In this document: positions 35,712 to 64,000 of the stretch, in pieces
Layout of the letters: each line of letters begins with the position of its first letter
Position numbering within the stretch: the first letter of the stretch is position 1
NCBI RefSeq assembly: GCF_026210795.1
Contig: NC_089447.1
Location: forward strand, 2,482,501 to 2,546,500
Direction: 5' to 3'
Length of the DNA stretch: 64,000 nucleotides
Origin: Rhizophagus irregularis
Lineage: Eukaryota; Glomeromycota; Glomeromycetes; Glomerales; Glomeraceae
Program-made: the position numbers and the translations under genes
The notes under the pieces: model-generated
The model's input: the letters and a program-made list of their open reading frames with translations, nothing else
What the model was told of the DNA's origin: nothing
The model's database searches: none

Positions 35712-35771
35712 TTATTCTGTCTCTTTCCCTTTTCCCCTTTTCTTTATTACCCGTTTTATCAGTGTGTAATA

Positions 35772-41987: not shown

Positions 41988-42970
41988 TTTGCTAGTGTTT
42001 ACGGCCAGACCACCCATTACCTCTTATGAGACTAATCTCGGGTCTGTGTCCTATCATCTTCACTGGGCAACTATTATACCGAGTACTTAATTCCTCAGGT
42101 AACAGCACCACTTTGAAGACATGCCCCCATCGCCGTTTTAAGCTGATGCGGTTTGTACGCGCCGCCTACTCATCCTATATCCATTGCGTGATACTGATAC
42201 TTTCAATTTATTTTACGACCTTTAGAGAGCATCTACTTTCATGGAGGACTTTCGACAGGTAACATCAACCATCTAGTACCCTTCCATACCACCATTTTAG
42301 GTACTAAGTCTCCATCAAAGGCCACTAATGCCTGTGATTACCTGCGTGATAGTACAGTTGTTTCTGCCCCAGAAAGTGTATTTGTTTTAGTGACCACTCG
42401 GACCAGGAAGTAGCAGGCATTTGTCCAGGATCACCCCTTATGGTGGGTATCAACCACCGCATCACCAACCAGGACCTGGGCGAGAGAATCCGAACCCTAT
42501 AACCACGCTACCTGTTCTGCGCACGAACACTTTGGTTGGCCTAAAACCTAACAGAAGGTCTAACTATCACTAAGACATTGCACCCTCAGCTTTACCATCT
42601 AGGACGACCATCTAGCCATTACTGACCACAAGTGGTATCGTGGAGTGACCACCCGGACAGGAAGTCCTCCTCAAGGTATAGTAGTGACCTTAAGGACAGG
42701 GGAACTGCTTGCTTGCGTGCCAATGGCCTCATAGGGAACGTTAGAAGGACACCATGACCCTTAGTTGAAATGTGCGGCCTAACTGTACACACTAATTCAC
42801 CATGATGCAGTCTAACTACACTAATCCCTGTACCTTCACGCTATTGGTTGTAGCGTCCGCAGTAAAATTCTTTTTATTTCCGTGGTCATGGGAATCGAAC
42901 CTGCGACCTCACCATACTCAGGCTTAATGAGGGTCTCAGTGACTAACCATTGAGATAGGGTGACCAACCC
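41988..42970 (-). mobile_element. tRNA-headed SINE A at site A
   Basis: A 983-base insert flanked by TAGTTTTATCCTTTTCC (41971-41987 and 42971-42987). On the minus strand it starts with a tRNA-like head (42968-42887) that has an A-box-like CTCAATGGTTAGT and a B box GGTTCGATTCC. A second tRNA-like module starts near 42591 (TGCAATGTCTTAGTGATAG), with a decayed B box near 42485. The 3' part (42470-41988) matches SINE C at 50923. No protein frame. RNA polymerase III transcription from the head is inferred from the boxes. Its 3' end GCAAAGG plus the target word is the same as in the LINEs. Confidence 0.7.
42887..42968 (-). ncRNA. tRNA-like head of SINE A
   Basis: The minus strand reads GGTCACCC at the 5' side and CATGACCA at the 3' side, giving a partial acceptor stem (GGTCA/TGACC). 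CTCAATGGTTAG fits a D-arm/A box, and GGTTCGATTCC is a perfect T-loop/B box. The anticodon arm is not convincing, and the sequence sits at the 5' end of a retroelement, so it is called a SINE promoter and not a working tRNA gene. Confidence 0.6.
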
Positions 42971-42987
42971 TAGTTTTATCCTTTTCC

Positions 42988-43058
42988 TTTGCTAGTGTTT
43001 ACAGCCAGACCACCCATTGCCTCTTATGAGACTAATTTCGGGTCTGTGTCCTATCATC
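42988..43058 (-). mobile_element. 5'-truncated SINE B fragment
   Basis: 71 bases matching the 3' end of SINE A and SINE C (TTTGCTAGTGTTTACAGCC onward). It is bounded by site A words at 42971-42987 and 43059-43075. A dead end product of incomplete reverse transcription. Confidence 0.8.
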
Positions 43059-43330
43059 TAGTTTTATCTTTTTCCTGTGCAAACAGTCTTGTGACTTTAT
43101 CTTTTATTTATATTTTAAACTTCGAAGACATGATCGAACAATATTACAAAAAATAAGAAAATAAACTAATAAAAAATAAAAAGAGTAGCTTCACGACTCA
43201 TACAAGTAAAGAAATCTAAACTAAAATAAAATTAAAGCAAAGAAAAACTAAACTATTACAGAATCGCATACCCCAACTTTACCCGAAGGCCAGTGTGAGT
43301 CAACTATCTAACATCCAAAAATCCAGTCCG

Positions 43331-46300
43331 TTACCAGAAAGAAATCCTAAGAGGTTGAACTGTTAAGTGGCACAGAAAATCCAAGTGCGAGATCCATGAT
43401 CCACCCCAGATTATAGAAGAGGATATCCAAGAAATCCAGGAATCCTGAGAAACTGACGCCAAAGAAGAGTTGTTTTTTTGTGAAGAAGTAGCAATAGAAG
43501 GAGAAGTTGTAGATGAGCCACGTAATTTAGAAGCAGCCAAGATACCCTGTGACTCTTCCCAAAGCATGGAAAAGAACATTCCGCCAGCACATCTGCAAAA
43601 GTGCGACTTGGAAGTCGTTCAAGAAGAGGAGAAATAGTGTTTGTATATAACGAGAGAGAGAAGTGTTGATTCAAAAATGCCGTTAAATGCGCAGGTAACA
43701 ATCCTCTAGTAAGCCAAAGACAGGACGGAGAAGGAGTTTCATAGTTCCAACAATCTAAAGTAGAGAAACCAGTTTGGAAGGTAATATCCAAAGGCTTCAG
43801 AAATAAGAACGAAGATAAACAAGAATCTCTGAATTTAACAATTTCAGACTGATGTGTTAAATATGGATTAAGATCTGGGAGAATATAAGGACAAGTCCAA
43901 AGATGATTCAAATCTTCAGGAGCTGAGTTGCATTGTGGACAAAGCCAGTAAGGAAAATATAAATAAGGCTTGCGTTGTTGAAGAGTAGTTAAGGTAGGCA
44001 ACATATCCAAAAGGAGTTTGATACAGAAGATCCAAAATTCAGGATGACCATTTTTATGCGAAGCAAAACCTTTAATTTGTGAAAGGCAGAAATATATACC
44101 AGCCCAATCAAAAAGTGAAGGAGAACCAAGAGCAGTAAAACGTGCCATGGAACAGAAAGATAAAAGAGCACGAGCATCGGCTATAGAGCGGAGAAAATGA
44201 CGAATATTCATGTCAATAGGCAAAGTGTTAAAAGTCAACAAACATGGAGCATTACAAAATGCCGAAGGGAAAACAGTAGGTTGTAAAGACGAATGAGCAT
44301 CTTTTGCCAGAGAATCCGCTTGTATATTGTGGATATCATCGCCATAAGCAAGGACTTTAATCAAATCGACTTTAAGATTACGATCTATGATAAGTTGTCG
44401 AATAGAAAGCCAAAAAAGATGATTAGGTTCTCGAAGCAACTTCGGTGAGAAGGGAGCATTAACAAAACGTGTCCATAAGGAAACTAATTGACTACAATCA
44501 GTATAAACAGAGATTGAAGAGTCATGGGAGAGGGCGCTTAATCCCGATAAAATAGCAAAAATTTCAGAATGCAAAGCCGAAGGAAAACAAGAAGGGAGAT
44601 GCACAGATGAAGATTCAAGGATAAAACCATCATCATCAAGAGCAATCCAAGCAGAAGTCATGGAAGAGAGTGAAGATTCTTTGGCAGGATGGAAAGAACC
44701 ATCGGTATATAAAGTTTGCACAAAAGACGGCAGAACATCAACTTCAATTCTGTCTTGAAAGGAAGGAGAAAGGGTGGGAGAAACGGATAAGAGGGGCGAG
44801 TTTGTCAAATGAACAAAAGCTAAAAAAGTAACATAACTCCATGAAGTAGATAGAGTTATGGGAAGGTAAGCCGCAAATACTTTGGCATTTCTGGTAGGAT
44901 AGCCCACAGTTTCCGATAGGATTACATTGAAAAAGCATTTTTCGCTATTGCATTGTTGTTTAATGGCAGATTTTCTGGATAATGCTGGAATATTAAGGGC
45001 ACAACCAGGACAAGGGTTATAGGTTCGTTCATCAGCCGAGGTAGATACAGGAAGCCAATGAGACATAATAGCTGAGTTTTGTTTCTTGTAGGTGATACAC
45101 ACACGGCCAACAGATAAAGTTTGAGTAGCAGAATCAAGATTAATAGCCCATTGAGGATAAAAATGATAATCTTTAACAGTATGATCTAATAAACAAGGAG
45201 AAGCTAAAGTAAAAGAAGAATTAATAAAATACAAAGACAAAAGTAAAGAAGAAGAAGAAGAGGAAAGAAAATTATTTTTTATAAAATTAAACCAAGCAGG
45301 AATGCGTCCTTTACGACCAATGATACCAAGGTACCGAAGGTCAGGCCAATTCATGAGATACTGTCCACAAGGAGAAACCAATTGAGCGAGCATAAATATA
45401 TTCAAATTTTTCCAAAGTTTCCAACTCGACTGAAAAATAGAATGTGGTAGAATGGATCGGAGCGGCATAGCCGGTTGTAGATCACGCCTCAGAGGTCGGA
45501 AAGATAGAGACCACGTGATAGTAAGTCGTGAAGAAAACAAAAGAGTGTTAAACAAAGTATGTGTCTATAAGTAGACAACTTGTGACCACAGTTCTAAGTT
45601 AATAGTAGTCGGGCAACTCTCCGCGCCCAAAAAGTCTTGAAGATATGAAATGGCATAGTTGGCAAACAATCGAAAATCTGGATGAGTGAAAATCTTTTGC
45701 CAAGAAGCCATATGAAAAGAAAGAAATCAGTAAAAAGCATTCTGAATAGAGAAAGGAAGTTTCAAGAAGAGCAAAGCTAATGGAGTAGTAGCGGCAAGAC
45801 CAGCTTTTCTTCTAAGAACTGAAAACATAGGTGTAACAATTGATTGAACAGTGTTTTCTGAAAAGAGAGCGGTTTGAAGACGAAATTCCAATCTCGGAAG
45901 GAGAACAGCATTGTACAGATAGGCTACATGTTGCGCCAATAATTTTTTCGGACCAAGAAGAGCAGCCATATCTTTAACCATAGAACGCGCTTGTTTAAGC
46001 ACAAATTGAGGAGAAGCAGATAAAGAAAACCAAACTCCTAAAAAACGGAATGAAGTATTCAAAAATAAAGAGGAAAGGGAAAGAGACAAATTGGAAACTA
46101 AAGAAGAAGGTGAAAGATCAAAAACTATCTTCGAAGAAGGGGAAAAGGAGGAAAGAAAAACATATTTAGCCGAATTAGCTTGAACATTATTCAAAGTATA
46201 AAATTCAGCAGTAATAGAAAGACGATCTTCAATGCCGGGCTTCGAAGAAGCAATAAGTGTAGAATCGTCCATAAATGTCAAATGTGAAATAGGTAAGGAA

Positions 46301-48717
46301 TGTTGTTCAAAATCAAGTGGAGAATATTCTAAGAGAGCTGAAGATTTCAAGACGAAAGGATCTTGTGCTTCTTGATTTAAAACAGTAAGTAAAGGGTCCA
46401 AATAAATAACCCAAAGTAAGGGGAAAATAATTTCTCCTTGATCGATACAAACACGGACTCTATAAGCAGCTGTATCGCCATAACAAGTTATAATTTTGTT
46501 ATTACGTCGTGTAAAAAGATTTAAAATAAATTGCACTAAAAGTGCAAGAATATGTAATCTAACTAAAGTTAATTTAAGCATATTCAGATCCATAGAATCA
46601 AAAGCTTTAGAGATATCTTGAGAAACGATCCATAATTCATGATCATCAGAAGAGTCATGTTTTTGTTGATAAATAATTGCATCAAGCATTTTGATAGGGA
46701 CATCAGTAGAACCACTAGGTAAACCCGCAAAGTTACCTCCTTGAAGAATTTTATTATCAGCAAGGATGTTGGAGAGACGATTCGTGACGACCTTAACAAC
46801 ACATTTTCGAACTATATCCAGAAGGGTAATAGGTCGAGTGTTCTTGAGTTGAGCATCAAAGTCATGGGGCTTGGGAATAGGATAAATCACGGCTTCACGC
46901 CAATCAGCAGGAATATCGCCGCGAGAAAGGCAAGTGTTGGCAAGTAAAAGAGAAAATCCTAAGGCATCACCGGACAAATGTTTGATCATCTCATAAGAAA
47001 TTTTTGAAGGGCCGGAAGCTTTGTTATTTGGCATGGAGGAAATAACACTAGACCATTCTTGTAAGGAAATAGGTGCTAAAACAGGATCATATAATAAAAC
47101 AGACACATCCGCAAGAGGAGTGTAGGCTTGTTGCCATCGAGCAGGAAATGAAGCAATAGAAGAATAATGGACCAACGGAGGAGAAACAATTGACTGGAAA
47201 TGAGCAATAGCAGCTTGTTTAATATCCAAAGGATCCGTTAAAAATGTAGGAGTAGAGTCCAGGACAACCAGGACGCGGTCAAGAACAATCAAACATTTTT
47301 CAACCGATAGAGCAGAGTCTATGAAGGTGCCAAGCGAGTTCGAAAAATGTTCGTCACGTAATGCTGTATAGAATTCCACAGAGTCCGTAAGATGTTGGGC
47401 GAATTTAGTAGATAAGAAGGCAGAAACTAAATTCTTTTGTGATCGTAAAAACGATTTAAAAACAGATATAGGAGTTGTGGAATAGGTAGGGATTAAATAA
47501 TCAGGAAGCAAGGATGTAAGATTCTCAAGATGGGAAGGTAAAGCAGCAGTCATTTGCGCAATTTGAGTAGGCCGATTGGAACGACAAGTGGTAAGGCGAT
47601 ATAAAAATCGATCTAAAAACTTGTTAATAGCAATAAGTTTAGTTAATTCAAGAGAGTATGAATATCGGTGTGTGTTGGAGACTTTTTGAAAAGGTAATGT
47701 TTCAATTGCAGCACTAAGTATGGCAGCTTTTAAAGCATGCCACATACGATCAAGAGAAAGAAAAGAGAAATCAAGACGAGAATTATATTGTCTATCTAAA
47801 TATACTCCAAGAGAATCATCCACTTCAGTGGTAAAATTATTCCATTGTTCATCCGAAGTGGAAGTATAAGAAAAGATAGTACGCATTTCTTTTTTTTGTT
47901 TGAGACGAGACTTAGCCAAAATAGCCAAGCAAGAACTAAAGTCAAAAACAGTTATAAGAACTTTGTGATCAGTAAAAGGACGATCAAGTAGATTAGGGCA
48001 AGTAACCACTTGCGTAAAAAGACCAGGGGCAGGAAAACCAGGTGAAGACCAGATATAATCCAGTCTAGAAGATCCATTATCATGGAAAAAAGTGGGATCA
48101 AGACCATCGGTAGAGGAGTGAGCTTGATGATCAGTAAAAAACTGAAAAGAGAGTAAACGAAGAAGCGTGAAGTGAGTGGATGAATAGTTGGAATGAGCGA
48201 CTTCATCAATATTGAAGTCGCCAAGGATGATTACAAAATAGTTATTAGCACGGGCATGATCAAGCCAAGAAAGAAGTTTGGCAATAAGATCAGCACCTAT
48301 AGACTGATGAATAGAGCCAGAAGGGGGATAATATATAGAGATAATAAAAATTTTCGTTTGATGAAAAAATAGATCCAATTTAAGAAGACGACCATTCCAA
48401 GGATCAATTGTTTGAACATGTTTATGAAGGGGATTACGTAATAAAATACCAACACCATCATGAGGACGAGAAGAAGACGAACAGGCCCAATAGGACCTAA
48501 AGTGATGTTGGAAATGTTCATTTTTGAAAATAAATTTAGCATTTGAAGGGGAAAGGCGGGTATCATTAATAGACAAAGCACCAAAAGAAGAATGAAGAAA
48601 AAAATTAAGCAAATGTTGTTGTCTAACTGGGGAACATAAGCCATTAACATTAATTTGACCAAATTTAATAAAGGGAGAAGGGTGAGGAGAAAAATTATGT
48701 TTTGTATTGTCCATCAT
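43331..48717 (-). pseudogene. LINE family A ORF2 (EN-RT-RNase H), nearly intact, copy 2
   Basis: One frame from 48717 (MMDNTKHNFSP) covers APE-type endonuclease (FGQINVNGLCS, then ILGDFNIDEVAHS near 48215), reverse transcriptase (SQDISKAFDSMDLNM near 46600, FMDDSTLIASS near 46265), RNase H (LYTDGSF near 44710, with later Glu, Asp and His blocks) and the C-terminal finger WLCPQCNS (near 43930). A TGA at 45727-45729 replaces an Arg codon kept in copy 1, and a TAG lies near 45568. A single-base frameshift near 43590 moves the last 80 residues (EESQGILAAS to RISFW) into another frame ending at 43331. Full length would be about 1795 codons. The family B copy carries the same domains. Confidence 0.88.
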
Positions 48718-48771
48718 TACTACACTATGATAAAAGGTAAGTAGTAGAGGGAAATAATTGGTAGTTAAAAA

Positions 48772-50775
48772 TTATTGGGAGTTCGCGTTATCGCGAGCAG
48801 CCAAGAATTGTTTTTGTTGAGCCATGCCTTGTTGTACTGTTTTAGTGAGTTCAGTGACTGTAGCAGTAAGGGAGGAAAGGCGATCTTGTGGTGATGTGGC
48901 AGGGCCAGGGATCAAATTCATACGGGGAGGAAGGAGAATATGTGAATGAGCAGTGAAATTAGGATCATTCGATGGTGAAACAGGAGAACTAAAATCCATG
49001 AGGTTGTCACTAAGACGTCGAGGATCAGAGGGTTCAATATTATCCCATCCTTGGTTCATAGATTTAATTTCGGGGGCAGGAGGAGCTTGAGGTTGTTGGG
49101 ACCTTGGAATAGGAGGGGAAGAATAGTGGTCTTCTAGCCATTTAACCCGATTTTGAAGTTGGGCAAATTCTGTGGTGAGGTGAGTAATTTCTTCGAGTAT
49201 GATAGTGATTTGTTCGGTGATATGTTGCCAATCCATTAAGGGTGGGATATTCATTGCAACTGTGTCATAGTCCAATTCAGATTGAGAAGGACGATGAGGA
49301 CGATGACGATGATTATTATGTTGAGAGCGCGAATGGGAAGATCTAGGGCGGGAATGGGATCGGGAGGGAGCTTTTCTTCCAGCAGCGTCAGCATAAGATC
49401 GTTGCCAGGAATTATCAGGACGCGCAAAACGATTATGACGTTTAGCGGGATGAGAAGAAGGTAAGTGTTTATTATATAATTCACGCAATTTATCATTGCT
49501 AGACCACGGACGAGAGGGACATTGAAGAGCACGTGACGAAGCGCATCTATCCGGAGTACATCCGGGATGACCACAACAATGGCAAAGAGAGGAGACTTCG
49601 GTAGGTTCATGCCAAGTAAGGCCAATAGATTTGAGAGCACAAGTAATCCCCATAGCCGATTCTTTAGTAGCAGCAGAGGAAAAGTGTACATACGCATAAG
49701 GTTTAGGATTGTAAGAATTGTAGGAGAAAGGGATGTTGACGCTTTTAGCAGAAACTTCTTTGGCAATTTCAGAAAGGTCGGCGGCAACAGAACCTCGAGG
49801 AAGGCCGGCAAGAAGTGCAACGTGGGCGCGTCTGATAGCGCGTTGATCAGATGAATGAGAAGCAGGGCAGACGCGTAAACAATGTCCAGTACAAAGAACA
49901 GCCCACGTGTTTTCAAATTGTTCCATGGCAGCGGTGGAGTCAAAAACTATATACGCAGTGCGATAAAGTTTCGAAAGACGCGTACGGCAGTGGGTAACAA
50001 TACCATAACAGGAGAATGTACCCCTTAATTGTGCATCGGTGACAAAGAGAGGGATGTCGGTAACTACCAGGATACGAAGCTGTTCATCTACCTTTTTAGC
50101 AGATGGGTCATGTTTGTGAAACTGTAGATCATGCAGGGAGGAGATAGGCGCAGCGATAGCTTTTTCCATATCGGGTTTGGAACGAAAGAAGGCAACGATA
50201 ATTTTATTATCGCCTGATCCTTGAGTGGTAGCTTTACTACCATAAGAGGAAAAGGAGGAGAATTCTCTGTCAGTCACGTCGCAAGCTTCGCGATTGGTTT
50301 TGAAGTGGGTCCAAAATCCTTTGATAGTAGAGGGCGCAGCCGCAGCATAAAAGCGAAGAAGGGAAGATTGTATAGCGGCGGCAGACGCGTCGGGAGACGC
50401 AGCGCGTTCAGGGTCAGGAGATAAAATTTCTACAGATTTTCCTTTATCTGCAGAGTTAGAAGGGGAGTGTTGGGAATCATCAAGGGAAGAACCAGAGTCG
50501 GGGGCCAAAAGGGACGCGTTGGTGTCAACGGGAGGAGAAGGCGAAGTTGAAGTATTTTCCTGAGGAGCAGGAGGAGTCAAAATATTGTCTTGGTCCATAA
50601 CGGGTTCAGAAGAAACCCGTGTGCATTTTGCAGAGTTGTCGGTCAAAGGTTGCGAAGTAGGACCTGGGATAGAAGCAGAAGAACCTTGACCTTGAACGTT
50701 GCCAGAAGGAGGACTCTGGGCAGGACGTTTTGGAGCAGAAGAACCGGAAGCTTTATTATTTCGTCTGTTAGTCAT
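48772..50775 (-). CDS. LINE family A ORF1 protein (RNA-binding, zinc knuckle), intact
   Basis: 667 residues with no interruption. The N terminus (about 1-150) is Ser/Pro-rich and disordered. An RRM-like fold is suggested at about 230-300 (LRILVVTDIPLFVTDAQLRG then GIVTHCRTRLSK). A second nucleic-acid-binding-like stretch follows at about 315-380. A compact cysteine-histidine motif CHCCGHPGCTPDRC lies near 400. Basic Arg/Ser/His repeats (SRSHSRPRSSHSRSQHNNHRH) follow at about 470-500, then a coiled coil (about 520-550) and a C-terminal helix. LINE ORF1 proteins coat the element RNA and escort it to the target. The start is 5' of all similarity and has no upstream alternative. Confidence 0.85.
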   Translation of the reverse strand: MTNRRNNKASGSSAPKRPAQSPPSGNVQGQGSSASIPGPTSQPLTDNSAKCTRVSSEPVMDQDNILTPPAPQENTSTSPSPPVDTNASLLAPDSGSSLDDSQHSPSNSADKGKSVEILSPDPERAASPDASAAAIQSSLLRFYAAAAPSTIKGFWTHFKTNREACDVTDREFSSFSSYGSKATTQGSGDNKIIVAFFRSKPDMEKAIAAPISSLHDLQFHKHDPSAKKVDEQLRILVVTDIPLFVTDAQLRGTFSCYGIVTHCRTRLSKLYRTAYIVFDSTAAMEQFENTWAVLCTGHCLRVCPASHSSDQRAIRRAHVALLAGLPRGSVAADLSEIAKEVSAKSVNIPFSYNSYNPKPYAYVHFSSAATKESAMGITCALKSIGLTWHEPTEVSSLCHCCGHPGCTPDRCASSRALQCPSRPWSSNDKLRELYNKHLPSSHPAKRHNRFARPDNSWQRSYADAAGRKAPSRSHSRPRSSHSRSQHNNHRHRPHRPSQSELDYDTVAMNIPPLMDWQHITEQITIILEEITHLTTEFAQLQNRVKWLEDHYSSPPIPRSQQPQAPPAPEIKSMNQGWDNIEPSDPRRLSDNLMDFSSPVSPSNDPNFTAHSHILLPPRMNLIPGPATSPQDRLSSLTATVTELTKTVQQGMAQQKQFLAARDNANSQ

Positions 50776-50922
50776 AGCTAAAAGTAGAAGGGAGAACTCA
50801 AATATGTAATAGTTAGAAGTAACGCGAAGTAAATAATAAAAATACTTCGAAAAAATCTTTTTTATTTTTTGTCGCTATATTGTCGTGAAGGCAACAGGAG
50901 AGAGTTAGTTTTATCCTTTTCC

Positions 50923-51525
50923 TTTGCTAGTGTTTACGGCCAGACCACCCATTGCCTCTTATGAAACTAATCTCGGGTCTGTGTCCTATCATCTTCAATG
51001 GGCAACTATTATACCGAGTACTTAATTCCTCAGGTAGCAGCACCACTATAGAAGACATCTTCCATCGGGCCATTATAGGCTGATCTGAAGCTAGGTACAC
51101 ACCGCCTACTCATCCTATACCCATTGCATGATACTGATACTCAATTTATTTAACGACCTTTAGAGAGCATCTACTTTCATGGAGGACTTTCGACAGGTAA
51201 CATCAACCATCTAGTACCCTTCCATACCACCATTTTAGGTACTAAGTCTCACTCAAAGGCCACTACAGCCCGCGATTACCTAGCACCAATAGTACAGTTG
51301 TTTACCCCAAGTGGTATACTTTGTAGTGATCACTCAGACAGGAAGTAGCAGGCTTCTGTCCAGGATCACCCCTTATGGTGGGTATCAACCACCAGGGATC
51401 ACCAACCAGGCCACCCAAGAAGTGGGGAATCGAACCCCATAACCATGCTACCTGTTCTGTGCACGAACACCTTGGTTGGTCTAAGACCTAACAGAAGGTC
51501 AAACTACCACTAAGACATTGCACCC
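50923..51525 (-). mobile_element. tRNA-headed SINE C at site A
   Basis: A 603-base insert between site A words at 50906-50922 and 51526-51542. The minus strand starts GGGTGCAATGTCTTAGTGGTAG (A-box-like), with GGGTTCGATTCCCCAC (B box) at about 51440-51425. The body matches the 3' two thirds of SINE A with about 10-15 percent differences by eye. It lacks the outer tRNA-like head of SINE A, so SINE A may be a compound or longer form. Confidence 0.72.
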
Positions 51526-51542
51526 TAGTTTTATCCTTTTCC

Positions 51543-52032
51543 TTTGCAAACAGTCTTATGACTTTTATCTTTTATTCATATTTAAAATTTCGAAAACGTA
51601 ATCGAACAATATTACAAAAATAAGAAAATAAACTAATAAAAAATAAAAAGAGTAGCTTCACGACTCATACAAGTAAAGAAATCTAAACTAAAATAAAATT
51701 AGAGCAAAGAAAAACTAAACTATTACAGAATCGTATACCCCAACTTTACCCGAAGCCGCTGAGTGAATAACTATCCAACATCCAAAAAATCCAGTCCGTT
51801 ACCAGAAAGAAATCCTAAGAGGTTGAACTGTTAAGCGGCACAGAAAATCCAAGTGCGAGATCCATGATCCACCCCGAATTATAGAAGAAGATATCCAAGA
51901 AATCCAGGAATCCTGAGAAACTGTTGCCAAAGAAGAGTTGTGTTTATGTGAAAAAGTAGCAAAAGAGGAGAAATTTGTAGACGGGCCACATAATTTGGAA
52001 GCAGCCGAGATACCCTGCGACTCTTCCCAAGC
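51543..52032 (-). mobile_element. 5'-truncated LINE family A copy 3
   Basis: 490 bases matching the 3' end of family A copy 2: the tail, the untranslated region, and the last 70 or so codons of ORF2 (AWEESQGISAASKL to VQPLRISFW, in frame down to 51799). It is bounded by TAGTTTTATCCTTTTCC (51526-51542) and AAGTTTTATCCTTTTCC (52033-52049). Confidence 0.85.
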
Positions 52033-52675
52033 AAGTTTTATCCTTTTCCGATCACTGGCTGACGAGTTATTCAACAAAATGTTAAACATCGGCATTATAA
52101 TATTTCTTGATTTACGTTTACTGCGCCATTTAACATTTTGCTAAATTTCTCAGTACCTAGTGATTGTAAAAAGACGATTTATAGATCGTTGGCATCGCCT
52201 TATCGAGACAAATCGAATGGTGGTAAGCTCATCTCTCTGTGATCAATATTGACGGAGTTATTACTTAAAAACCATTTAATATTTTTTAATTTCGGAAATT
52301 GATCTAGTGATTGGATTTCGATGTATCTTATACCATTAGATTCGTCTCATCAAGACGAATTGAATGGTAGTAAGATCGTCTTTCTAGGATCAATATTGGC
52401 AGAGTTATTACACAAAAACCATTAATATTTTTTTAATTTCGGAATTTAATCTAGTAATTGGGTTTCGACGTATTTTATACCATTAGAACCGCCTCATCAA
52501 GACGAATCAAATGGCAGTAAGATCATCTCTCTACGATTAATATTGGCGAAATTACGATACAATAAAGTTTTAAGTATAATTCTGGCTAAAATTATGTTAA
52601 TTTTTGGCCAGAATTATGATATACAAATATAAGAAATTTTTTTATATAGTCACATCTCTTTATAATCACCAAATA

Positions 52676-55600
52676 TTTTCCATTACTGCTGAATTTTACA
52701 CTTTAAATAATATTCAAGCAAATTCAGCAAAATATATCCTTCTTTCTTCTGAACATTTTTCTCAAACTATTGTATTTGATCTATTCCCATCTTCTTTAAA
52801 TACGATTCATACCCTTACTTTAAAGGCGTTAGCCTTATCTACATCTTTTCGGTTTTTAGGTGTTTGGTTTAACCTTTCGGCTTCTTCTCATTTCGTTCAT
52901 AACCAAACTGCTTCCATGGTCAAAGACATGGCCGCTCTACTCAGTCCTAAAAAACTTTTAGCACAACATATAGCTTATCTTTATAACGTTGTCCTACTTC
53001 CGCGGCTAGAATTTCGCCTACAAACCACATTATTTGCAGAATCTACCATTAATCGCATGGTTTCTCCAATGCTTTCTCTTATTCGTCAGAAGGCTGGTTT
53101 GGCCTCAGTTACTCCTCTTTCCGCGCTTTTCACTCTGTTGCCTTTCTCTATTCAACAAGCGTTTGGTCGATTTCTATCATCCCATGTGGCTTCATGGCAG
53201 AAAATTTTCTCTCACCCTTCATATAAGCTATTTGCTAATTATATGATTACTTATCTCCAAGGTTTTTGGACTGTGATGCCTGCCCTTCTACTATTGATCT
53301 GGAACCATGGTCCCATACCTTTTCCTTGCGAACACATTCTTTATTTAATTCTTTATTGTTCTCCTCTCGTTTAAATATCACGTGGTTTTTATTGTTCCGA
53401 CCTCCGAGAAAAGACTTACGTCCGGCGATTCCACTCCGGTCTATTTTACCGAAAGATTTATTTACTTCCATGAAAAATGTTCGAAACAATTTTGGCACTC
53501 GTTTTCTTGCCCAACTGGTTTCTCCGTGTGGCTCTCGACTTCTCTCATGGAAAGATTTACACTTTCTTAAACGAGTTTCGAACAAAGGATCTGTGCCTGC
53601 TTGGTTTACTTTCTTATTTAATTTTATTGTTATTTCTGATTCTTCTTCCTTTTTTGTTTTACCGCAATTTAAGATTCCTATTTTTCATACAGTAGCTTCC
53701 ATTTCTTTTATCGACGTTAGTCGAAATTATTGGTTTAACCCTCAATGGGCTATTTCTTTTAATCGTAATACTAACTCTTTTCTTGTTGGCCGTGTGATTA
53801 CTACCTATCCTACTCCACGTAATGAAGCTCTTATTTCACATTGGATTGCGTCTTCAGTTGATGACTTGCTTTCTGATTTTACTGCATGCCAAGGTTGTGC
53901 CTCTGCTATTCCGCGATCCTCTACTTCTAAGACTTTGATTAAACGATGTCCCTCCGAAGGATGTTTTTCTCATGTTCCGTTATCAAGTTTGATCCGTTAT
54001 CCTACGAAACCACGTACTTATATACATGCAGATACTCGCTCGGTTTCACTTTCTGCCTCGTTAGGCTATGCCAAATCTCTTTTATTATTCCAGCTTTTTG
54101 CTTCGGTTCAACTACCTCCTATAACTGATCAAGTGTCTAGGACTTCCGATATTCAACTTCCTTCTTCGGTGTCTACACTTTATATTGATGGTTCCTTTCT
54201 TCCTCCTTCTAGTCATCCGGTATCCTCGATGGCTTACGCATGGACTGCTATAGATCCTGATGGATTTATTTTAGAATCTCACTATAATATTATTTCTTCC
54301 ATTTTTCCTTCTGCTTTACGTTCAGAAGTTTTTGCTTTATTACATGGATTAGACTCCCTCCCTCGGAATTCTTCGATAACTGTCGCCACTGATTGTGCTC
54401 AATTACTTTCTTTATGGTCTTTATATGTGGATGCTCCTTTTATTCCCAGAATGCTTAAAGAATCCAACCACCTTTTGTGGTCCTCCATACGCACTATTAT
54501 GTTGCAAAAGAATCTGGATGTTACCTTGATTAAGGTCCCTGCTCATGCTGACGATCATTTGAATAATCATGTGGATGCATTAGCCAAAGCCGCTCATTTT
54601 GACTCACAGCTTTCTTCTTGTCTACCATTGGAATTAATGGCTCCTTGCATTTTACAATTTAATTCCTTACCTGTGGATATAAATATCCGGAAATTTATTA
54701 GAGATATTTTTGACGCCAAAAGTCTTTTGACTCTTGCTGTATTACCAAGATTTAATTCCTATTTTTCAACTTCTGATATTGATTGGGCTTGTGCCAAATT
54801 TTGTCTCAATAACAATAAGCAATTTGCCTCTCATCGGAATGGCCGTTCTGAGTTTTGTGGTTTCCGTATCAAATTACTTTTAGATATGCTTCCAACGCTT
54901 ACAACTCTTCAAAGACGAAAGCCTCACCTTTATGATCCGAGTTGGCTTTGTCCTCAATGTAATTCTTTTCCTGAGACTTTAGACCACTTGTGGACTTGTC
55001 CTTATATCTTACCGGAATTTAGCCCTTTAAATACTTTTAAAACACTTCTATTGGCTCTCCGAACTAATTATCTTGACAAATTCCTTTCCACGTCATCTTT
55101 AATACCTTTACCGGACTCTTTTGTTGCTGAATTTATGGCTCTTGATTGTTGGAATTGTGACCCTCCTTCATTTTCTTGCCTGAGACATCGCAGATTTAAT
55201 TTATACCGATATCCCTTACAAAATTCCTTGGAAATTATTTTTCTTCACTTACCATATGGTCTATTTTAAATACACCTTTGCACGACTTTCATTTTGACCT
55301 TTATGTCCAAATCTGGTTGTGCCGTTCCGTTTTCTTTCATCATTGGGAATCAGCTCAAGGCATTACAAAAAAAATGAAATCGTCAGCTCTTGGGCCTTCT
55401 TCTATTCTTTGTCCTTCCACTAATATTCCTCTTGACTCTTCGACACCTTCCTTGGCGACAGCTTCCTTGGATTCCTGGGTTTCTTGGGTTTCCTCTTCTA
55501 TAATCCGTGGGGGATCTTGGATTTCACATTTGGATTTTTGGCGCCGCTTAACAGTTCAGCCTCTACTTAGGATTTCCTTTTGGTAACGGATTGGATCTTA

Positions 55601-55853
55601 GGACATGCTGGATAGTTGACTCACACTGGCCCTTCGGGTAAAGTTGGGGTATGCGTATTCTGTAATAGTTTAGTTTTTCTTTACTTAATTTTATTTTGTT
55701 TAGATTTCTTTACTTGTATGAATCGTGAAGCTAGTTCTTTTTATTTTTTATGTTTATTTTCTATATTTGATATTTGTAATATTGTTCGATTTGTTTGTTG
55801 TACTTTTCGTTTAAAATTAATAATAAAAGATAAAGTCATAAGACTGTTTGCTC
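52676..55853 (+). mobile_element. 5'-truncated LINE family B copy at site B
   Basis: Begins mid reverse transcriptase (TTTCCATTACTGCTGAATTT) and ends AGACTGTTTGCTC. It is flanked by direct repeats ATAATCACCAAATA (52662-52675 and 55854-55867), which is site B of the host transposon. The coding part (to about 55586) includes the end of RT, RNase H with intact-looking LYIDGSF (54178), and the finger WLCPQCNS (54949). The frame breaks near 53262 and near 55200, so it is dead. Confidence 0.88.
52677..55586 (+). pseudogene. LINE family B ORF2 3' fragment
   Basis: The frame starts inside RT just after the FMDDS block and continues through the thumb (SFRFLGVWFNLSASS), a frameshift near 53262, then a 667-residue open stretch (53266-55269) holding RNase H (DGS, Glu in LRSEVFALL, Asp in TVATDCAQL, His-Asp in KVPAHADD and VDALAKAAH) and the CCHC-like finger. 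A second frameshift near 55200 shifts the last about 110 codons (DFHFDLYVQIWLCRSVFF to RISFW), which end at 55586. By eye it is very close to the full-length copy at 55870-63859. Confidence 0.85.
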
Positions 55854-56010
55854 ATAATCACCAAATATGGAGGATCATCGCAACTCTCTCCTGAATTTTT
55901 GAAAATACTAATAAAATTTATTTTTGAAATTTTCGTTCAAAAATTTCTAAGTGCTCGTTCACAATACTAATATTTCCACAGTTGCTTTCCTCTTTACTGA
56001 GCTTTAAACT

Positions 56011-58129
56011 ATGACTACACCTCCAGCTCCTTCTGTTATTAACCCGGATATTCTACCACCACCGTGTCCTATTGTTTCTACTCCCTCTGGAGCCGACCTT
56101 TATCTCCCACTAGTACCGTTGGCGCACCCAATAAACGTACATGTACTGTCTCTGATGACGCGATGAATGTTGATATAACTTCGCCTCAGCTCCTGCTCCC
56201 ACCCTTGCTTCTACCGTTCCTTCTGGTCTTCCTGTCAACAAAGTCCAAGTGATCACCTCTCCTCAAAATACTACTACTCCTATTGAAACTGTTGACGCTT
56301 CTATCCATGCCCCCTCTAACACTGACGGTAAAGGCAAAGCTGTTGCCTTCGATATCCCAGAACGCCGACCATCCCCTGATGGTAATGCTGCCGCTATCAA
56401 ATCTGCACCCACTCGTTATCATGCTGCGGCATATCTACGCGACGCGCCTGACGCGTTCAAAGCTAAATTCACCACCAATCGCTCCATGTGTGACGAAGTG
56501 GATTGTTCACTCTCCCGATATTCTTCTTATAGCGCCCGTGCACGTTGCGATGGATCAGGCGATAACAAAAAGATCCTTGTCTTCTTTTATGATCAGCATG
56601 ATTATACTGATTGTGTCAGCTCCCCACGTGCTGATCTTCTCAATTTAGCCTTCACCCATTATTCTCCTGCAGATGCCAAACTCAATGACGAAGCAAAGTC
56701 TTTGTTTGTTACCGACATCCCACTCTTCCTAAACGAGACGCAAGTCTGCCAAGCATTTTCCCGATATGGCACTGTGATTAAGTGTAAACTCACCCCTAAG
56801 AAACATTATTACAATGGCCATATCCAATTTTCCTCCGCAGATGCAATTGCCCAATTTAATGATATCTGGGCGATTATCTGCCTAGGCAATTCTTTACGTG
56901 TCTGCCCGGCATCCTTTTCGAAAACCCAACGTGATAGCTGAAGAGAACATGTCGCTATCCTCGCTGGTATTCCAAAAAATATCAAAGAAGCTGACCTTCT
57001 AGAAATCGCTTCCCAAGTTAACGCGAAAGCTCTTAACGTACCTCTTTCTGTCAACTCTTACAAGCCCAAACCTTATGTCTATTTAAATTTCTCCTCGTTT
57101 GATACCCTTGAAGCTGCTAAAGAATTATCTGTGGCTTTCCGAGGCAAAGGCTTAACATGGCATCCTCCCAACGAAGCTCACACCTTGTGTCATGTATGCG
57201 GACGTCAAGGTTGCTCCCCTTCTGTATGCAACCCTCGTCCTACACGCAAAGTGGATGATCGACTTAATAAACTTTATTCACGTTTCAATGCTAGCCCTAA
57301 GCGTGGCCATCAGGATTCACGCCAATCACGTAACAATTCTAATTCCCGTTCAAGATCGTGATCCAATTCTAGATCCCGCAATAATAATCCCTCTTCATCC
57401 CGTTCCGGCAATAGCAACAATAATACTAACACTTCTCAATGCCCTCCTCGAAGTAACAACCGGACCAACAATAATGCTAATAATCACAGGAACAATGAAA
57501 AAAGTTCTTCCAGTTCTACTCAACCTCCACATAAACCTCATTCTGTCAGTTCTACACCAGCTACTTCTCCATCTGACAATCCTGCCCATATACTTCCTCA
57601 ACATGTTATTGATGATTTAAAGGCGCAAATTAAAGAGATCGCTAACACCCTACGTACTCTAGAGGAAACTGTCTCTTGGATGAATGATACTATCACGTCC
57701 CATGAGTATAGGCTATCTGAGCTTGAGTCAATGATGAATTATGACAACCCTGGTGACGCTGATTTGTATCCGCCTCGTGATGATCATGAAAATCAATATC
57801 ATTCTTATAATAATGGATGGGATGATGCCACAACCCAAGACACGAATTCTGGATTCAATCTTCCCCCTCATACTACCCCTTCTCTTATGGACACTTCTCC
57901 TGATGCCTCCTTCTCAGCTCTGGATCCTAACTCCGTCTTATCACGCAGACATGTCCCATTACCTAACTCCCATCCTATTATCGTTAACCCCGATGTTACT
58001 ACTTCCCGTCTGCAATCGGAAATTTCTAATGTCACCAATACACAAAAGAATCTTTCTGCCCAACTTGGTTCGATTATGGAAAAATTGGACTCCTTCTCTC
58101 ACCCAAAACCCTCCCCTTCCAATGATTGA
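56011..58129 (+). pseudogene. LINE family B ORF1, lightly damaged
   Basis: Starts MTTPPAPSVINPD at 56011. A frameshift near 56100 and another before about 56249 lead into the main frame, which runs to 58129 with TGA at 56939 and 57359. Features: a Pro/Thr-rich N terminus; a block FTTNRSMCDEVDCSLSRYSS shared with family A (FKTNREACDVTDREFSSFSS); an RRM-like LFVTDIPLFLNETQVCQAFS; the knuckle CHVCGRQGCSPSVC (57195); Arg/Ser/Asn-rich tracts; a coiled coil (IKEIANTLRTLEETVSWMND); and a C-terminal helix. Both TGA codons sit where CGA (Arg) is expected. It is the counterpart of the intact 667-residue protein at 50775-48772. Confidence 0.8.
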
Positions 58130-61100
58130 ACACCAATTTATATCGGGTGTTTCACAGGGATCTCACCCCCCTGATAGTGCGCTATTTAATATTAATTGTC
58201 TTAATAACTCCCCTTCTTCCTTTTCCCCTTTTATTAACTTTGGACAAATCAATGTTAATGGTTTGTGCTCCCCTGTTCGACAATTGCATTTGTTAAATTA
58301 TTTTCTTCATTCTTCTTTTGGTGTTTTATCTTTAAATGATACTCGTCTTACTTCTTCCAGTGCTAAATTTATTTATCAAAATGAACATTCCCAACATAAT
58401 TTTAAGTCCTATTGGGCTCCTTCCCCTTCTAATTCACGACCACATGATGGTGTTGGTCTTTTACTTCGCCATCCTTTACATAAACATGTTCAGAAGATTG
58501 ATCCTTGGAAAGGTCGTCTTTTAAAATTGGATCTTTTTTTCCATCAAACAAAAATTTCTATCATCTCTGTTTATATTCCTTCTTATCATTCTATTCATTA
58601 CAAAGAACGTGATGCTATTTTTGCCTAACTAATTTATAACTTGATAAAGCCCGTTCTAATAACTATCATGTAATCATCCTTGGTGATTTTAATGCAGATG
58701 AAATTTCACATTCACATCTTCCTCAACATCATTTGAAAATTTTGCGATCACTTTCTTCTCGATATTTTACGGATCATCAATCCCATATTTCTTCAATTTC
58801 CGGTCCTAGTCTTACCTTTTATCATCAGAATGGTTCTTCAAGACTTGACTATATTTGGTCATCTCCTGGATTTCCTGCTTCTGGTCTTTTCTCTCAAGTT
58901 GAAACTTGTCCTAAGCTGAATGATAATCAATTTACTGATCACCGTGTACTTATAACCGCTTTTGATTTTAGCTCCTGTTTCGCTACTCTAGCTAAAGCTA
59001 GATTAAAACAAAAAAGCGAACAACGCACCATTTTTCTCTACAAAAACTTGAATGATGATATTTGGGACAAATTTTCTAACGAAGTAAACTCACGTCTTGA
59101 GCTGTATTTGGCCACACATCATCCTTCTATATCTTCACTTTCAGCTCTTTCTTTGGACAAACTTTGGCACGCTCTTAAACGTTCTATTCTTGGTGGTGCC
59201 ATTGATTCTCTACCATTTCAACATGTATCCAATACTCACCATCATAAATATCCTCCCGAGCTTATCATGCTTATTGCTATTAACAAATTCTTGGATAGAT
59301 TATTGTTTAAATTGACCACATCTAGGCCTAATCGTCCTGCTCAAATTTCACAAATGATTAATTCTTTACCTACCCAATTAATCCTTCTTAAATCTATTTT
59401 AACAGATTATACTATACCTTTTTATAGTACAACACCACTTTCTATTTTTGTCAAATTTTTGCGTTCACAAAAAGCTTTGGTCTCAGCCTATCTTTCCACG
59501 CAATTTCATCAACATCGTGTAGATTCCATTGAATATTATACTGCTCTTAGAGATGAACATTTCTCTACGTCTCCGGGCTCTTTCATTTTTTCAGCCCTAT
59601 CAGTGGAACATCGTTCTATTGTTCTTGATAGAGTTTTGGTCGTAATTGACTCCAAACCCACTTTACTTACTGATCCCACAGATATCAAACAAGCTGCTAT
59701 TAAACACTTCCAATCGGTCGTTACTCCTCCTTTGGTCCAGTATTCTTCTACGGATTCATTTCCTCCACGATGGCAAAGAGCATATACTCCTCTTTCTGAT
59801 CTTGATTCGTCATTATACAACTCGGTCATGTCTCCTATCCTGGAAGATGAATGGAAGAACATTCTCCATTCTATGCCTAATAATAAAGCCTCTGGTCCTT
59901 CAAAAATTTCTTATGAGATGCTCAAACATTTAACCGGCGAAGCTTTCAATTTATCCCTTGTCTTAGCTAACGCCTGCCTCATTCATGGAGATATTCCCGC
60001 TGATTGGCGTGAAGCGCTTGCTTATCCCATTCCAAAACCTCATGAATTTGACGCACAATTAAAGAATACGCGACCTATCACTTTGTTGGAAACTGTACGA
60101 AAATGTGTGGTTAAGGTCGTTACAACTCGACTTTCAAAAATCCTAGCTGATAATCAAGTGCTCCAAGGTGGTAATTTTGCTGGATTGCCAGGCGGTTCTA
60201 CTGACATCCCTATTAAGATGCTTGATGCTATTATTCATCAACGACGCTTTGACAAAACTGATGACCAAGAATTATGGATTGTTTCTCAGGACATTTCCAA
60301 GGCCTTTGACTCAATCGATTTAAACATGCTTAGATTAGCTTTACTCCGTCTGCATATACCGTCTTTGTTGATTAAATTTATCATTAACCTTTTTACAAGA
60401 CGTAATAATAAAATTATTACTTGCCATGGTGATACTCCTGGATACAGAGTTAGAATTGGTATAGACCAGGGTGAAATTATTTCTCCGTTATTATGGGTAA
60501 TTTATTTAGATCCTTTGTTCACAACACTTAATCGAGAAGCTAGTGATCCTTTTATTTTGAAATCCTTCGCATTATTGGATTATTCTCCAATTGAATATGA
60601 ACAACACAATTTCCCTGTTTCACATATTACATTTATGGATGATTCTACTTTGATCGCTTCATCTAAACGAGGAATTGAAGATCGCCTTTCCATTACTGCT
60701 GAATTTTATACTTTAAATAATACTCAAGCAAATTCAGCAAAATATATCCTTCTTTCTTCTGAACAATTTTCTCAAACTATAGAGTTTGATCTTTCTCCTT
60801 CTCCTTTAATTTTTAATTCTTTCCTTACTTTAAAGGCGTTAGCCTTATCTACATCCTTCCGTTTTTTAGGTGTTTGGTTTAATCTTTCAGCTTCTTCTCG
60901 TTTTGTTCATAACCAAACTATTTCCATGGTTAAAGACATGGCTGCTTTACTCAGTCCTAAAAAACTTTTGGCACAGCATGTGGCTTATCTTTACAATATT
61001 GTCTTGCTTCCGAGACTAGAATTTCGCCTACAAACCACATTATTTGCCGAATCTACCACTAATCGCATGGTCTCTCCGATGCTTTCCCTCATTCGAAAAA

Positions 61101-63595
61101 AGGCTGGTCTTGCCTCAGTCACTCCTCTTTCTGCGCTTTTCACATTGTTACCGTTCTCAATTCAGCAAGCTTTTGGCCGATTTTTATCATCACATGTTGC
61201 CTCATGGCAGAAAATTTTTTCTCATCCTTCATATAAGATTTTTGCCAATTATATGATTACTTATTTGCAAGGTTTTTTGGACTGTGATGCCTGTCCTTCT
61301 ATTATTGATTTGGAACCATGGTCTCATACCTTTTCCCTGCGTACACACTCTTTGTTCAATTCTTTACTGTTTTCTTCCCGATTGAATATCACGTGGTCTC
61401 TAACATTCCGACCTCCGAGAAAAGATCTACGTCTGGCAATACCACTCCGGTCTATCTTACCAAAAGAATTACTTACTTCCATGGAAAATGTTCGGAAGAA
61501 TTTCTGCACTCATTTTCTTGCTCAATTGATTACACCGTGTGGTTCTCGATTTCTCCCATGGAAAGATCTTTGCTTCCTTAAACGAGTATCGAACAAAGGA
61601 TCTGTGCCTGCTTGGTTTACTTATTTGTTTAATTTAGTTGTTATTCCTAATTCTTTTTCCTTTTTTGTTTTACCACAATTTAAAATATCTAATTCTTATA
61701 CTGTAGCTTCTATTTTTCCTATAGATATTAGTCGTAATTATTGGTTTAACCCTCAATGGGCTATTTCTTTTAATCGTAATACTAACTCTTTTCTTGTTGG
61801 CTGTGTGATTACTACATATCCAGCTCCACGTAACGAAGCTCTTATTTCACATTGGATTGCGTCATCTGTCGATGACTTATTATCTGATTTTATTGCATGC
61901 CAAGGATGTGCCTCTGCTTATCCGCGATCCTCCACTTCCAAAACATTGCTTAAACGATGTCCCTCTGAAAAGTGCTTCTCTTATGTGCCTTTATCAAATC
62001 TCATCCGTTACCCTACGAAGCCTCGTACTTATATACATGCGGACACTCGATCGGTCTCACTTTCCGCTTCGTTAAGCTATGCCAAATCTTCATTATTATT
62101 TCATCTTTTTGCTCCGGTTCGATCACCTCTTATGAACAATCAAGTGTCTCAGATTTCTGATATCCAACTTCCTTCTTCGGCTTCTGCACTGTATATTGAT
62201 GGTTCCTTCCTCCCTCCTTCTAGTCATCTGATATCTTCGATGACTTATGCATGGACTGCTATAGATCCTGATGGATTCATTTTGGAATCTCATTATAATA
62301 TCACTCCTTGCGTTTTTCCTTCTGCTTTACGTTCAGAAATTTTCGCTTTATTGCACGGACTGGACTCCCTCCCTCGGAATTCAAAGATTACTGTCGCCAC
62401 TGATTGTCCCCAATTACTTTCTTTATGGTCTTTGTATGCGGATGCTCCTTTTATTCCCAGAATGCTTAAAGAATCCAACCACCTTTTGTGGACCTCCATA
62501 CGAACTATTATGTCGCAGAAGAATCTGGATGTTACTTTGATCAAGGTTCCCGCTCACGCTGATGACCCTTTGAATAATCATGTGGATGCTTTAGCTAAAG
62601 CCGCTCATACTGATTTGCATCTTCCTTCCCATTCATCATCGGAATTACTTGCTCCTTGTATTTTACAATTTAATTCTTTACCTGTGGATATGAATATCCG
62701 GAAATTCATTGGAGATATTTTTGACGCCAAGAGTCTCTTGACTCTTGCTTTACTCCCAAGATTCAATCTTAATTCCTCTATTTCAGATATTGATTGGGCT
62801 TGTACCAAATTTTGTTTTAATAATAAACAACTACAATTCTCCCATCGAAATGGCCGGTCTGATTTTTGTGCTTTCCGTATCAAGATTTTATTGGATATGC
62901 TTCCGACACTCACAACTCTTCAAAGACGAAAGCCTCATATTTATGATCCGAGTTGGCTCTGTCCTCAGTGCAACTCCTTTCCTGAGACTTTAGACCATTT
63001 ATGGACTTGTCCTTATATTTTACCTGAATTTAGTCCTTTTAATACTTTTAAAACACTTCTCCTGGTCCTTAGAACCGTTTGTCTTGGAAAATTTCTTTCC
63101 ACGACTCCTTTGAAATCTCTACCGGACTCCTTTGTTATGGAATTTACGGCTATGGATTGTTGGGACTGTGATCCTCCTTCAAATTCTTGTCTGCGACTTA
63201 CACGTGGACTTATACCGATGTCTCTTACTAGTTTTCTTGGAACATATTTTTCATTATCCACTATTTGTTCTATTCTTGATACACCTTTACATGATTTTCA
63301 TTTTGATCTCTACGTACAAATCTGGTTGTGCCGTTCCGTTTTCTTTCATCATTGGGAATCAGCTCAAGGCATTACCAATAAAATGAAATCGTCCGTTATT
63401 GGGCCTTCTTCTACTACTCATCCTTTCTCGCAAATTTCTTCTGCAATTTTGACACCTTCTTTGGCGACAGCTTCCTTGGATTCCTGGGTTTCTTGGGTTT
63501 CCTCTTATATAATCCATGGGGGATCTTGGATTTCGCATTTGGATTTTTAGCGCCGCTTAACAGTTCAGCCTCTACTTAGGATTTCTTTTTGGTAA
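58122..63595 (+). pseudogene. LINE family B ORF2 (EN-RT-RNase H), nearly intact
   Basis: The ATG at 58122 overlaps the ORF1 stop (ATGATTGA). The frame runs through the endonuclease start (FGQINVNGLCSPVRQ at 58239), meets a TAA at 58626 and a single-base frameshift near 58650, then stays open for 1605 codons (58733-63550) to a TAG at 63548, which replaces Trp; the last codons end at 63595. Reverse transcriptase blocks: SQDISKAFDSIDLNM (60286), GIDQGEIISPLLW (60459), FMDDSTLIASS (60634). RNase H: LYIDGSF (62188), LRSEIFALL (62328), TVATDCPQL (62390), KVPAHADD (62543) and VDALAKAAH, a complete acidic set. Finger: WLCPQCNS with LDHLWTCPYI (62950-63020). Confidence 0.88.
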
Positions 63596-63875
63596 CGGAT
63601 TGGATCTTTGGATATGCTGAATAGTTGACTCACACTGGCCTTCGGGTAAAGTTGGGGTATGCGTTTCTGTAATAGTTTAGTTTTTCTTTACTTAATTTTA
63701 TTTTGTTTAGATTTCTTTACTTGTATGAATCGTGAAGCTAGTTCTTTTTATTTTTTATGTTTAATTTTCTATATTTTATTTGTAATATTGTTCGATTTGA
63801 GTTTTGTACTTTTCGTTTAAAATTTAAAATAAAAGATAAAGTCATAAGACTGTTTGCTCATAATCACCAAATATG

Positions 63876-64000
63876 AAAATCATCGCAACTCTTTCCTGAA
63901 ATTTTGAAAATACTAATAAAAATTTAATTTTGAAATTTTCGTTCGAAAATTTCTAAGTGCTCGTTCACAATACTAATATTTTCCCAGTTGCTTTCCTCTT
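63876..64000 (+). mobile_element. 5' end of a further family B LINE
   Basis: The last 125 bases match the leader of the copy at 55870 almost base for base (ATCATCGCAACTCTTTCCTG, then CGAAAATTTCTAAGTGCTCG). They follow a site B word at 63860. The array therefore continues past the window. Confidence 0.9.

Follow-up and report, generated by a model that had tools for sequence, protein, structure and literature searches.

A 64,000-bp stretch of the Rhizophagus irregularis genome (C19:2482501-2546500; the window is this whole stretch) carries copies of a small DNA transposon, into which long interspersed nuclear elements (LINEs) of two families, LINE-A and LINE-B, and two short interspersed nuclear elements (SINEs), SINE-A and SINE-B, have inserted at two internal words, site A and site B. 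It is highly probable that these elements form two LINE/SINE pairs working in parallel, each specific for its own target and each restoring that target through the target-site duplication, so that mixed head-to-tail arrays grow, and that the host is a small, non-autonomous cut-and-paste transposon which acts as the landing ground of both pairs. This interpretation was drawn from the sequence, that is from the site, the orientation, the 3' junctions, which are near-precise, the 5' junctions, which vary more, and the presence of the word at every junction read. Genome-wide counts refer to 146,748,485 bases in 32 contigs, and coordinates above 64000 are contig C19 positions minus 2482500.

Insertion sites within the host transposon

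The empty host measures 963 bp, and its copies in the window have 23-bp terminal inverted repeats (TIRs), with 21 of the 23 bases paired and TA on both sides. The ends begin with CAGT and the TA is duplicated, as in pogo/Tc1-mariner-like termini, and it is from these termini and the TA duplication that the host may be called pogo-like. Because a pattern for either end of the host (with two degenerate bases) gave 809 matches genome-wide, the copy number of the host is probably of the order of 400. The distance from the left end to site A is approximately 280 bp, and site B starts 54 bp from the right end. An empty site A with the exact sequence was found 53 times in the genome.

The site-B word ATAATCACCAAATATGGA was found exactly at 22167-22184 (+) and 32047-32064 (-), both in the host and empty as the sequence-only reading had reported, and at 55854-55871 (+). 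Inexact words are present at 63860-63877 (one mismatch) and at 52662 (15 of 18 bases, at the start of a 5'-truncated copy). Shuffled versions of the window contained a mean of 0.29 matches, and five or more matches were seen in none of 100 shuffles. Genome-wide there are 436 exact words, against 0 for the reversed control. The exact words read, 28 in all (the first 8 of the list and 20 hand-picked from the 100 listed on C1-C9), belonged without exception to the host element or to an array; 18 were empty host, 7 were junctions of LINE-B to host, and SINE-B to host, LINE-B to LINE-B and host to LINE-B were found once each.

Insertion specificity was determined by reading element ends; the patterns used below to class neighbours need a target-like word and hence are no test of specificity. 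The lists of element ends comprised the 40 best-scored places out of 75 to 439 candidates and were no random sample. For LINE-B, the best 40 of 347 candidate 3' ends and the best 40 of 108 candidate 5' ends were scored, partial alignments from query base 102 (L014, L017) being excluded. All 40 3' ends and all 40 5' ends adjoined ATAATCACCAAATAT or a near variant, and the 3' ends, one of which is in the window, had at most one difference in the first 14 bases of the word. This confirms the earlier claim that LINE-B starts and ends at an internal word of the host, and none of the copies read was located at a random site. Exact-pattern junctions at site B numbered 114 for LINE-B and 69 for SINE-B (183 in total) in the genome, with 0 for the reversed patterns.

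At site A, all 20 LINE-A ends read (of 41 listed) were at the word GGAAAAGGATAAAAC with at most two differences, and LINE-A had the orientation opposite to that of LINE-B in the host, in agreement with the sequence-only reading. All 20 SINE-B ends read (of 80 listed) were at site B and all 20 SINE-A ends (of 43) at site A, one of the latter with downstream sequence of another kind. For all four kinds of element, each end read was within two differences of its own word, some having one base more or less, and 0 elements of one pair were found at the site of the other pair among these ends. LINE-B, LINE-A, SINE-B and SINE-A units were 5'-truncated at many points. The hallmarks of LINEs with an APE-type endonuclease, i.e. 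a near-precise 3' junction, 5' truncation and a target-site duplication, were present. As words within arrays have a LINE or a SINE on at least one side, recognition by the endonuclease is probably confined to the word and, at the most, one of its flanks.

SINE-B is approximately 1.0 kb long, starts with GGGTTGGTCACCC, contains a box-B-like GGTTCGATTCC and ends with CACTTGTAAA directly at the site-B word; it follows many LINE-B 3' ends. At the site-A word, SINE-A ends with CTAGCAAA or CTTGCAAA. Both SINEs are present in many copies with target-site duplications at both sides. In their heads GGTTCGATTCC and a TAGTGGTTAGT-like stretch were seen, which resemble the box consensus, and ARAGORN detected no tRNA in either head. 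SINE-A and SINE-B have a common head and body and different 3' tails. When ten SINE-B were compared with one full SINE-A, identity was 94% and 97% in bases 0-200 (within SINE-B 91% and 97%), 78% and 89% in bases 200-400 (within SINE-B 87% and 85%), 72-77% in bases 400-700 (within SINE-B 90-96%) and 62% in bases 700-800, and beyond base 800 it was 31-40%, i.e. no similarity (within SINE-B 75-87%). The point where the two part is position ~733 of SINE-B. Runs of at least four SINE matches that end near SINE-B positions 733-797, site-A-type tails included, appear in the place lists at C23:659997-665579 and C1:1408187-1413231.

Composition and growth of the arrays

The site-B array extends past the window, to window coordinate 85667 (a further 24 kb was read). 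The full array consists of four LINE-B and two SINE-B in one orientation, with seven words in 33 kb, in the order host, truncated LINE-B, LINE-B, LINE-B, SINE-B, SINE-B, LINE-B, host end. On the + strand of the window, a host-side word of which 15 bp remains (52662..52676) forms the 5' junction of the 5'-truncated copy 1 (52677..55853), and this copy is followed by a word (55854..55871), copy 2, which is a full-length unit of 7,988 bp (55872..63859), another word (63860..63877) and the start of copy 3 (63879..64000, on to 75337). Two SINE-B (75353-76353 and 76372-77376) and LINE-B copy 4 (77394-85653) follow in the same orientation, then the host end, and the later words are located at 75338, 76354, 77377 and 85654. 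The sequence-only reading had described a truncated, a full and a third LINE-B in one orientation with a word at each junction; the units and words in the window stand as described, but the SINEs and the extension to 85667 had been missed. The stretch that covers the truncated copy and runs into the full one (52677-55994) is 86.6% identical to that which covers the last part of the full copy and runs into the third (60687-64000). The domains of copy 2 are an APE-type endonuclease (~58220-58950), a reverse transcriptase (RT, ~60029-60877) and RNase H (~62312-62605). Copy 3 is split by approximately 3.45 kb of other sequence (67011-70463, L179) and copy 4 carries a 280-bp insertion (77522-77802).

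Clusters were counted on C1-C28 (C29-C32 excluded), with 100 listed of the 114 LINE-B places. The 152 junctions formed 83 clusters, of which 24 were mixed LINE/SINE; 109 junctions were in clusters of at least two, and there were 40 such clusters. The downstream neighbour at known junctions was host in 26 and another unit in 33 of 59 cases for LINE-B, and for SINE-B (n = 36) these numbers were 12 and 24. For LINE-A (n = 25) host was found 6 times and a unit 19 times, and for SINE-A (n = 23) 8 and 14 times, with one neighbour assigned to neither class; the heads of the two SINEs are indistinguishable on short stretches, and SINE classes were pooled in this count. No neighbouring units in opposite orientation were found among the junctions classified. 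At C29:1942811-1943656, a stretch of less than 1 kb has SINE-B matches on each of the two strands; this departs from the one-way order and may be a local rearrangement.

An array at 3.79-3.82 Mb of C12, with the order host, LINE-B, four SINE-B, LINE-B, LINE-B, host, has the private variant ATAATCAACAAATAT in all 8 words found, across host, LINE and SINE junctions. All other junctions listed with either base (97 LINE-B and 67 SINE-B) have C at the variant position. Another variant is present in 5 of the 5 words read in an array at 1.809-1.844 Mb of C5, one of them ambiguous through microhomology. The interiors of these two arrays were partly read, and the right end of the C5 array lies beyond the part read. 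Because a private variant is common to the LINE and SINE junctions of one array, the word appears to be copied from the chromosome at insertion, with new units entering old words.

Proposed mechanism and alternative explanations

We propose that the LINE-B endonuclease would nick the strand opposite ATAATCACC, immediately in front of that word, and that the LINE-A endonuclease would make the corresponding nick before GGAAAAGG on its own strand. The freed 3' end would prime reverse transcription of LINE-B RNA (target-primed reverse transcription, TPRT), and SINE-B RNA would be copied in trans from the same nick by the LINE-B protein. A cut in the second strand approximately 15-17 bp further would duplicate the word, so that every insertion would restore the whole target on its two sides. 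With the target regenerated at both sides, further units could insert and the arrays could grow; later LINE-B and SINE-B would enter the restored words in the same orientation, resulting in head-to-tail mixed arrays. LINE-A and SINE-A would do likewise at GGAAAAGGATAAAAC, in the opposite orientation. The 3' tail of a SINE would choose the LINE enzyme and thereby the site. A wider formulation, on which our judgement is evenly balanced, would have two orthogonal channels splitting one 1-kb transposon, with endonuclease A and tail A serving site A and endonuclease B and tail B serving site B. A SINE would then switch channel by tail exchange, keeping its head, and a LINE by a change of endonuclease, keeping its 3' untranslated region (UTR); each write would restore its own address, and the arrays would be a serial record of insertion.

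Several observations weigh against two target-specific pairs with regenerated targets and are considered here together with the alternatives. The 3' junction of one LINE-B (L122) has 6 extra bases, and some others have one base more or less. The 5' junctions are only moderately variable, one of two fillers being present in 46 of 58 LINE-B instances (overlapping loci kept). Old, divergent copies at other sites could escape the best-scored lists. Open reading frame 2 (ORF2) of LINE-B copy 2 in the window is broken, the frame being lost near 58626-58640. The arrays at C23 3.615 Mb and C10 2.52 Mb each have one discordant internal word, which would have to be a later mutation. An origin of the arrays in which LINE and word were duplicated together, in tandem or by unequal crossing-over, is suggested by the regular spacing of many matched LINE-B ends, often approximately 8,010 bp apart, and by the median LINE-B identity, which was 92.0% within arrays (13 pairs) against 88.0% between loci. 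W3 and W4, both in the window array, share 94.0% identity and W3 is the nearest relative of W4, so that this pair is possibly a duplication. As the origin of the arrays we nevertheless regard such duplication as very unlikely. Mean LINE-B identity was equal within arrays (89.1%, 12 true array pairs) and between loci (89.2%, 422 pairs), 12 of 13 array copies had their nearest relative at another locus, and the units are of mixed kind and truncated differently. In this test the 435 of 528 pairs with an alignment of at least 900 bp were counted; the 'same-locus' pair L028/L037 is on opposite strands, 33 kb apart, and is no array, and with this pair included the values are 89.4% and 14/15 instead of 89.1% and 12/13. 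The arrays thus appear to be no simple tandem duplications, and their units are probably mostly of independent origin. A shade less probable again is that the word belongs to the RNA of the element, by read-through or by RNA-to-RNA template jumping, and is carried and not copied from the target. All element ends read are at the word, and a read-through RNA would contain it, which could aid priming. The words, however, track the array and not the element, private variants being present in 8/8 and 5/5 words across LINE and SINE units, and the LINE units of the C12 array have their nearest relatives at other loci. Although 8-kb repeats are difficult to assemble, collapsed or chimeric repeats can be dismissed almost entirely. 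The units of one array differ by 3-16%, there are arrays with private words, the pattern is repeated in the 40 clusters of at least two junctions, and the genome was assembled from Nanopore data, with 10 gaps and a coverage stated as uniform (PMC10234402). The collapse of unrelated copies, which the sequence-only reading had named as a refutation of its claim should it explain the junction words, is unlikely on these grounds.

The main rival is a separate helper, in which SINE-A and SINE-B would be moved by unseen LINEs with identical nick sites and SINE-like tails. We consider this improbable, but a good deal less so than the explanations above. Neither LINE-A nor LINE-B has a 3' UTR with sequence likeness to the SINE tails, and no common terminal fold was seen among SINE and LINE 3' ends. 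Various SINEs take their 3' ends from a partner LINE (PMC3747384). Here, unlike in SINEs of the stringent type, the tails match neither family's 3' UTR, and a helper other than LINE-A or LINE-B is possible. A LINE with a SINE-B tail was sought upstream of 10 tail places absent from the first SINE list (best 40 of 75), and none was found. Nine of the ten turned out to be SINE-B bodies: 7 were SINE-B bodies as such, 3 of these right after host, and those on C18 and C29 were SINE-B interrupted by ~0.4 and ~3.2 kb of other sequence. The tenth tail (C6:2140026, L202/L174; C6:2137000-2140594) is joined, from position ~733, to at least 3.3 kb of other sequence, and this tail speaks for a helper. The joined sequence resembles none of the 120 LINE proteins compared and is either another element with a SINE-B tail or an insertion. 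Against unseen LINEs, SINE-B has the junction base, the orientation and the arrays of LINE-B.

Relationship of the LINE families and other features of the window

Both families have an APE endonuclease, an RT and RNase H, and the protein architecture is common to them, as had been noted from the sequence. In Pfam, LINE-B matched RVT_1 (8.9e-17), Exo_endo_phos (1.3e-05) and RNase_H (2.7e-06). LINE-A matched RVT_1 (1.8e-12) and Exo_endo_phos (2.2e-08), with an RRM in ORF1, and its RNase_H match (1.5e-05, 25.6 bits) was just under the cut-off of 25.8. With 8 A and 6 B sequences compared, the two families were 70.7% identical in the endonuclease, 61.2% in the linker and 75.4% in the RT. Fixed differences were found at 111 residues in 36-930, nine of them in 148-167, and the families differ by one residue in length approximately 17 residues before the SRLDYI motif; in LINE endonucleases this region would be near the DNA-binding hairpin, and the fixed differences may lie on DNA-binding loops. 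In an RT tree of Rhizophagus proteins and two further proteins, LINE-B formed a clade, with beside it LINE-A and a third clade, whose members (P0025, P0027, P0052, P0053, P0063, P0064 and P0065) come from other R. irregularis entries; the grouping of A with the third clade had a support of 88/77. No close copy of the third clade was found in the genome among the best 27 of 1902 candidates, the best having 73% identity. Matches without inner stops occur in both the A and the B group. The tree and the identities support the previously implied target switch, inasmuch as a single species has two related families, A and B, that occupy different sites of the same host element.

The shared 3' UTRs reported earlier were also recovered. 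The last 400 bp of LINE-A and LINE-B (43079-43467 and 63456-63857, respectively) have 82-85% DNA identity, against mostly 72-75% in the coding regions, which suggests constraint or exchange. In the middle of ORF2 a database protein of this family omits ~85-95 bp where the genomic frame is often open in LINE-A and LINE-B copies (e.g. C18:1394709-1394797); this is either an intron of the gene caller or a real intron.

Host copy 1 (20702..22220, +) has 23-bp TIRs and TA flanks; its site A holds a 5'-truncated LINE-A and its site B is empty. A near-perfect 0.5-kb palindrome (20061-20586, 93% self-complementary), perhaps a foldback element, adjoins this copy on the left. Host copy 2 (32011..41691, -) is inverted, with one LINE-A at site A and an empty site B. 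It is interrupted by a DUF659 element (~32209-34881, Pfam E 3.5e-22), which is presumably hAT-like, and its left tip resumes at 85710-85740. Host copy 3 (41692..64000, on to 85707, +) starts with CAGTCAACTCCC at 41692, ends with GAGTTGACTG at 85707 and has both arrays inside, through which it went from ~1 kb to 44 kb. It lies at a TA within the terminal repeat of the left end of copy 2 (41681-41691, 85708-85740), as a host within a host.

The site-A array is on the - strand and has six words, at 41973..41987, 42973, 43061 (one mismatch), 50908, 51528 and 52035. In its own reading direction it consists of a 5'-truncated LINE-A (51543..52034), a 5'-truncated SINE-A (50923..51527), a LINE-A unit (43076..50907; ORF1 with RRM, ORF2 with APE endonuclease, RT and RNase H), a SINE-A fragment with the 3' tail only, between two site-A words (42988..43060), and a full-length SINE-A (41988..42970) with a tRNA-like head and the box-B-like GGTTCGATTCC. 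Rfam at gathering cut-offs gave 0 matches within the 64-kb window.

Comparison with known target-specific elements

Tx1L in Tx1D of Xenopus is the classic LINE targeting a DNA transposon. Like Tx1L, the Rhizophagus LINEs are of the APE type and use a fixed site within a DNA transposon; Tx1L is not known to use more than one site, to be paired with a SINE or to form mixed arrays, whereas Rhizophagus has two sites, SINEs and arrays. The fixed site in a repeated sequence is a trait of the Tx1 clade that was found here. Tx1/L1 elements are not known to carry RNase H, whereas LINE-B has this domain and LINE-A a match just under the cut-off. TRAS/SART and R1/R2 resemble LINE-A and LINE-B in their strict TPRT site specificity, with target change within a clade known; their targets are pre-existing tandem repeats, whereas here a single-site target is multiplied via target-site duplication.

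Transposon-targeting LINEs appear among the target-specific kinds (PMC4640811, PMC5035012), Tx1 is mentioned as a target-specific LINE (PMC3747384, PMC4640811) and a change of target is known for R2 (PMC5035012). A transposable element library of R. irregularis lists LINE and SINE families (PMC11075540); the words 'nested' and 'tandem' are absent from its main text, and its available passages do not mention target sites. Among titles and abstract openings, with hits partly shown and subscription journals mostly outside, no literature on target-specific Rhizophagus LINEs or SINEs was found. Two sites per host, a cognate SINE per site, site-matched SINE tails and ordered mixed arrays via the duplicated target were not found in the literature searched. 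Transposon-targeting LINEs are thus already known, and the combination seen here looks new.

The origin of new strict targets of LINE endonucleases and the choice of a LINE enzyme by a SINE are open questions, and both could be tested here by chimeras. One genome holds related LINE families that use two different targets, together with two SINEs of one head and two tails, and has 183 site-B junctions. The arrays test target-site duplication as a mechanism of growth, and the private words link insertions to their locus. Two independent, self-restoring address words may also interest builders of site-specific LINE writers.

The R2 and R2/R1 hybrid non-autonomous ribosomal DNA elements (PMC3414825) are similar in using the site of a site-specific LINE; these are described as LINE derivatives with internal deletions, whereas SINE-A and SINE-B have no LINE similarity and a tRNA-like head. 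Tail-sharing SINE/LINE pairs (PMC3747384) likewise comprise a tRNA-headed non-autonomous element whose movement is attributed to a partner LINE. They differ in that the SINE and LINE described here share the site and not the 3' tail, one head being combined with two tails at two sites.

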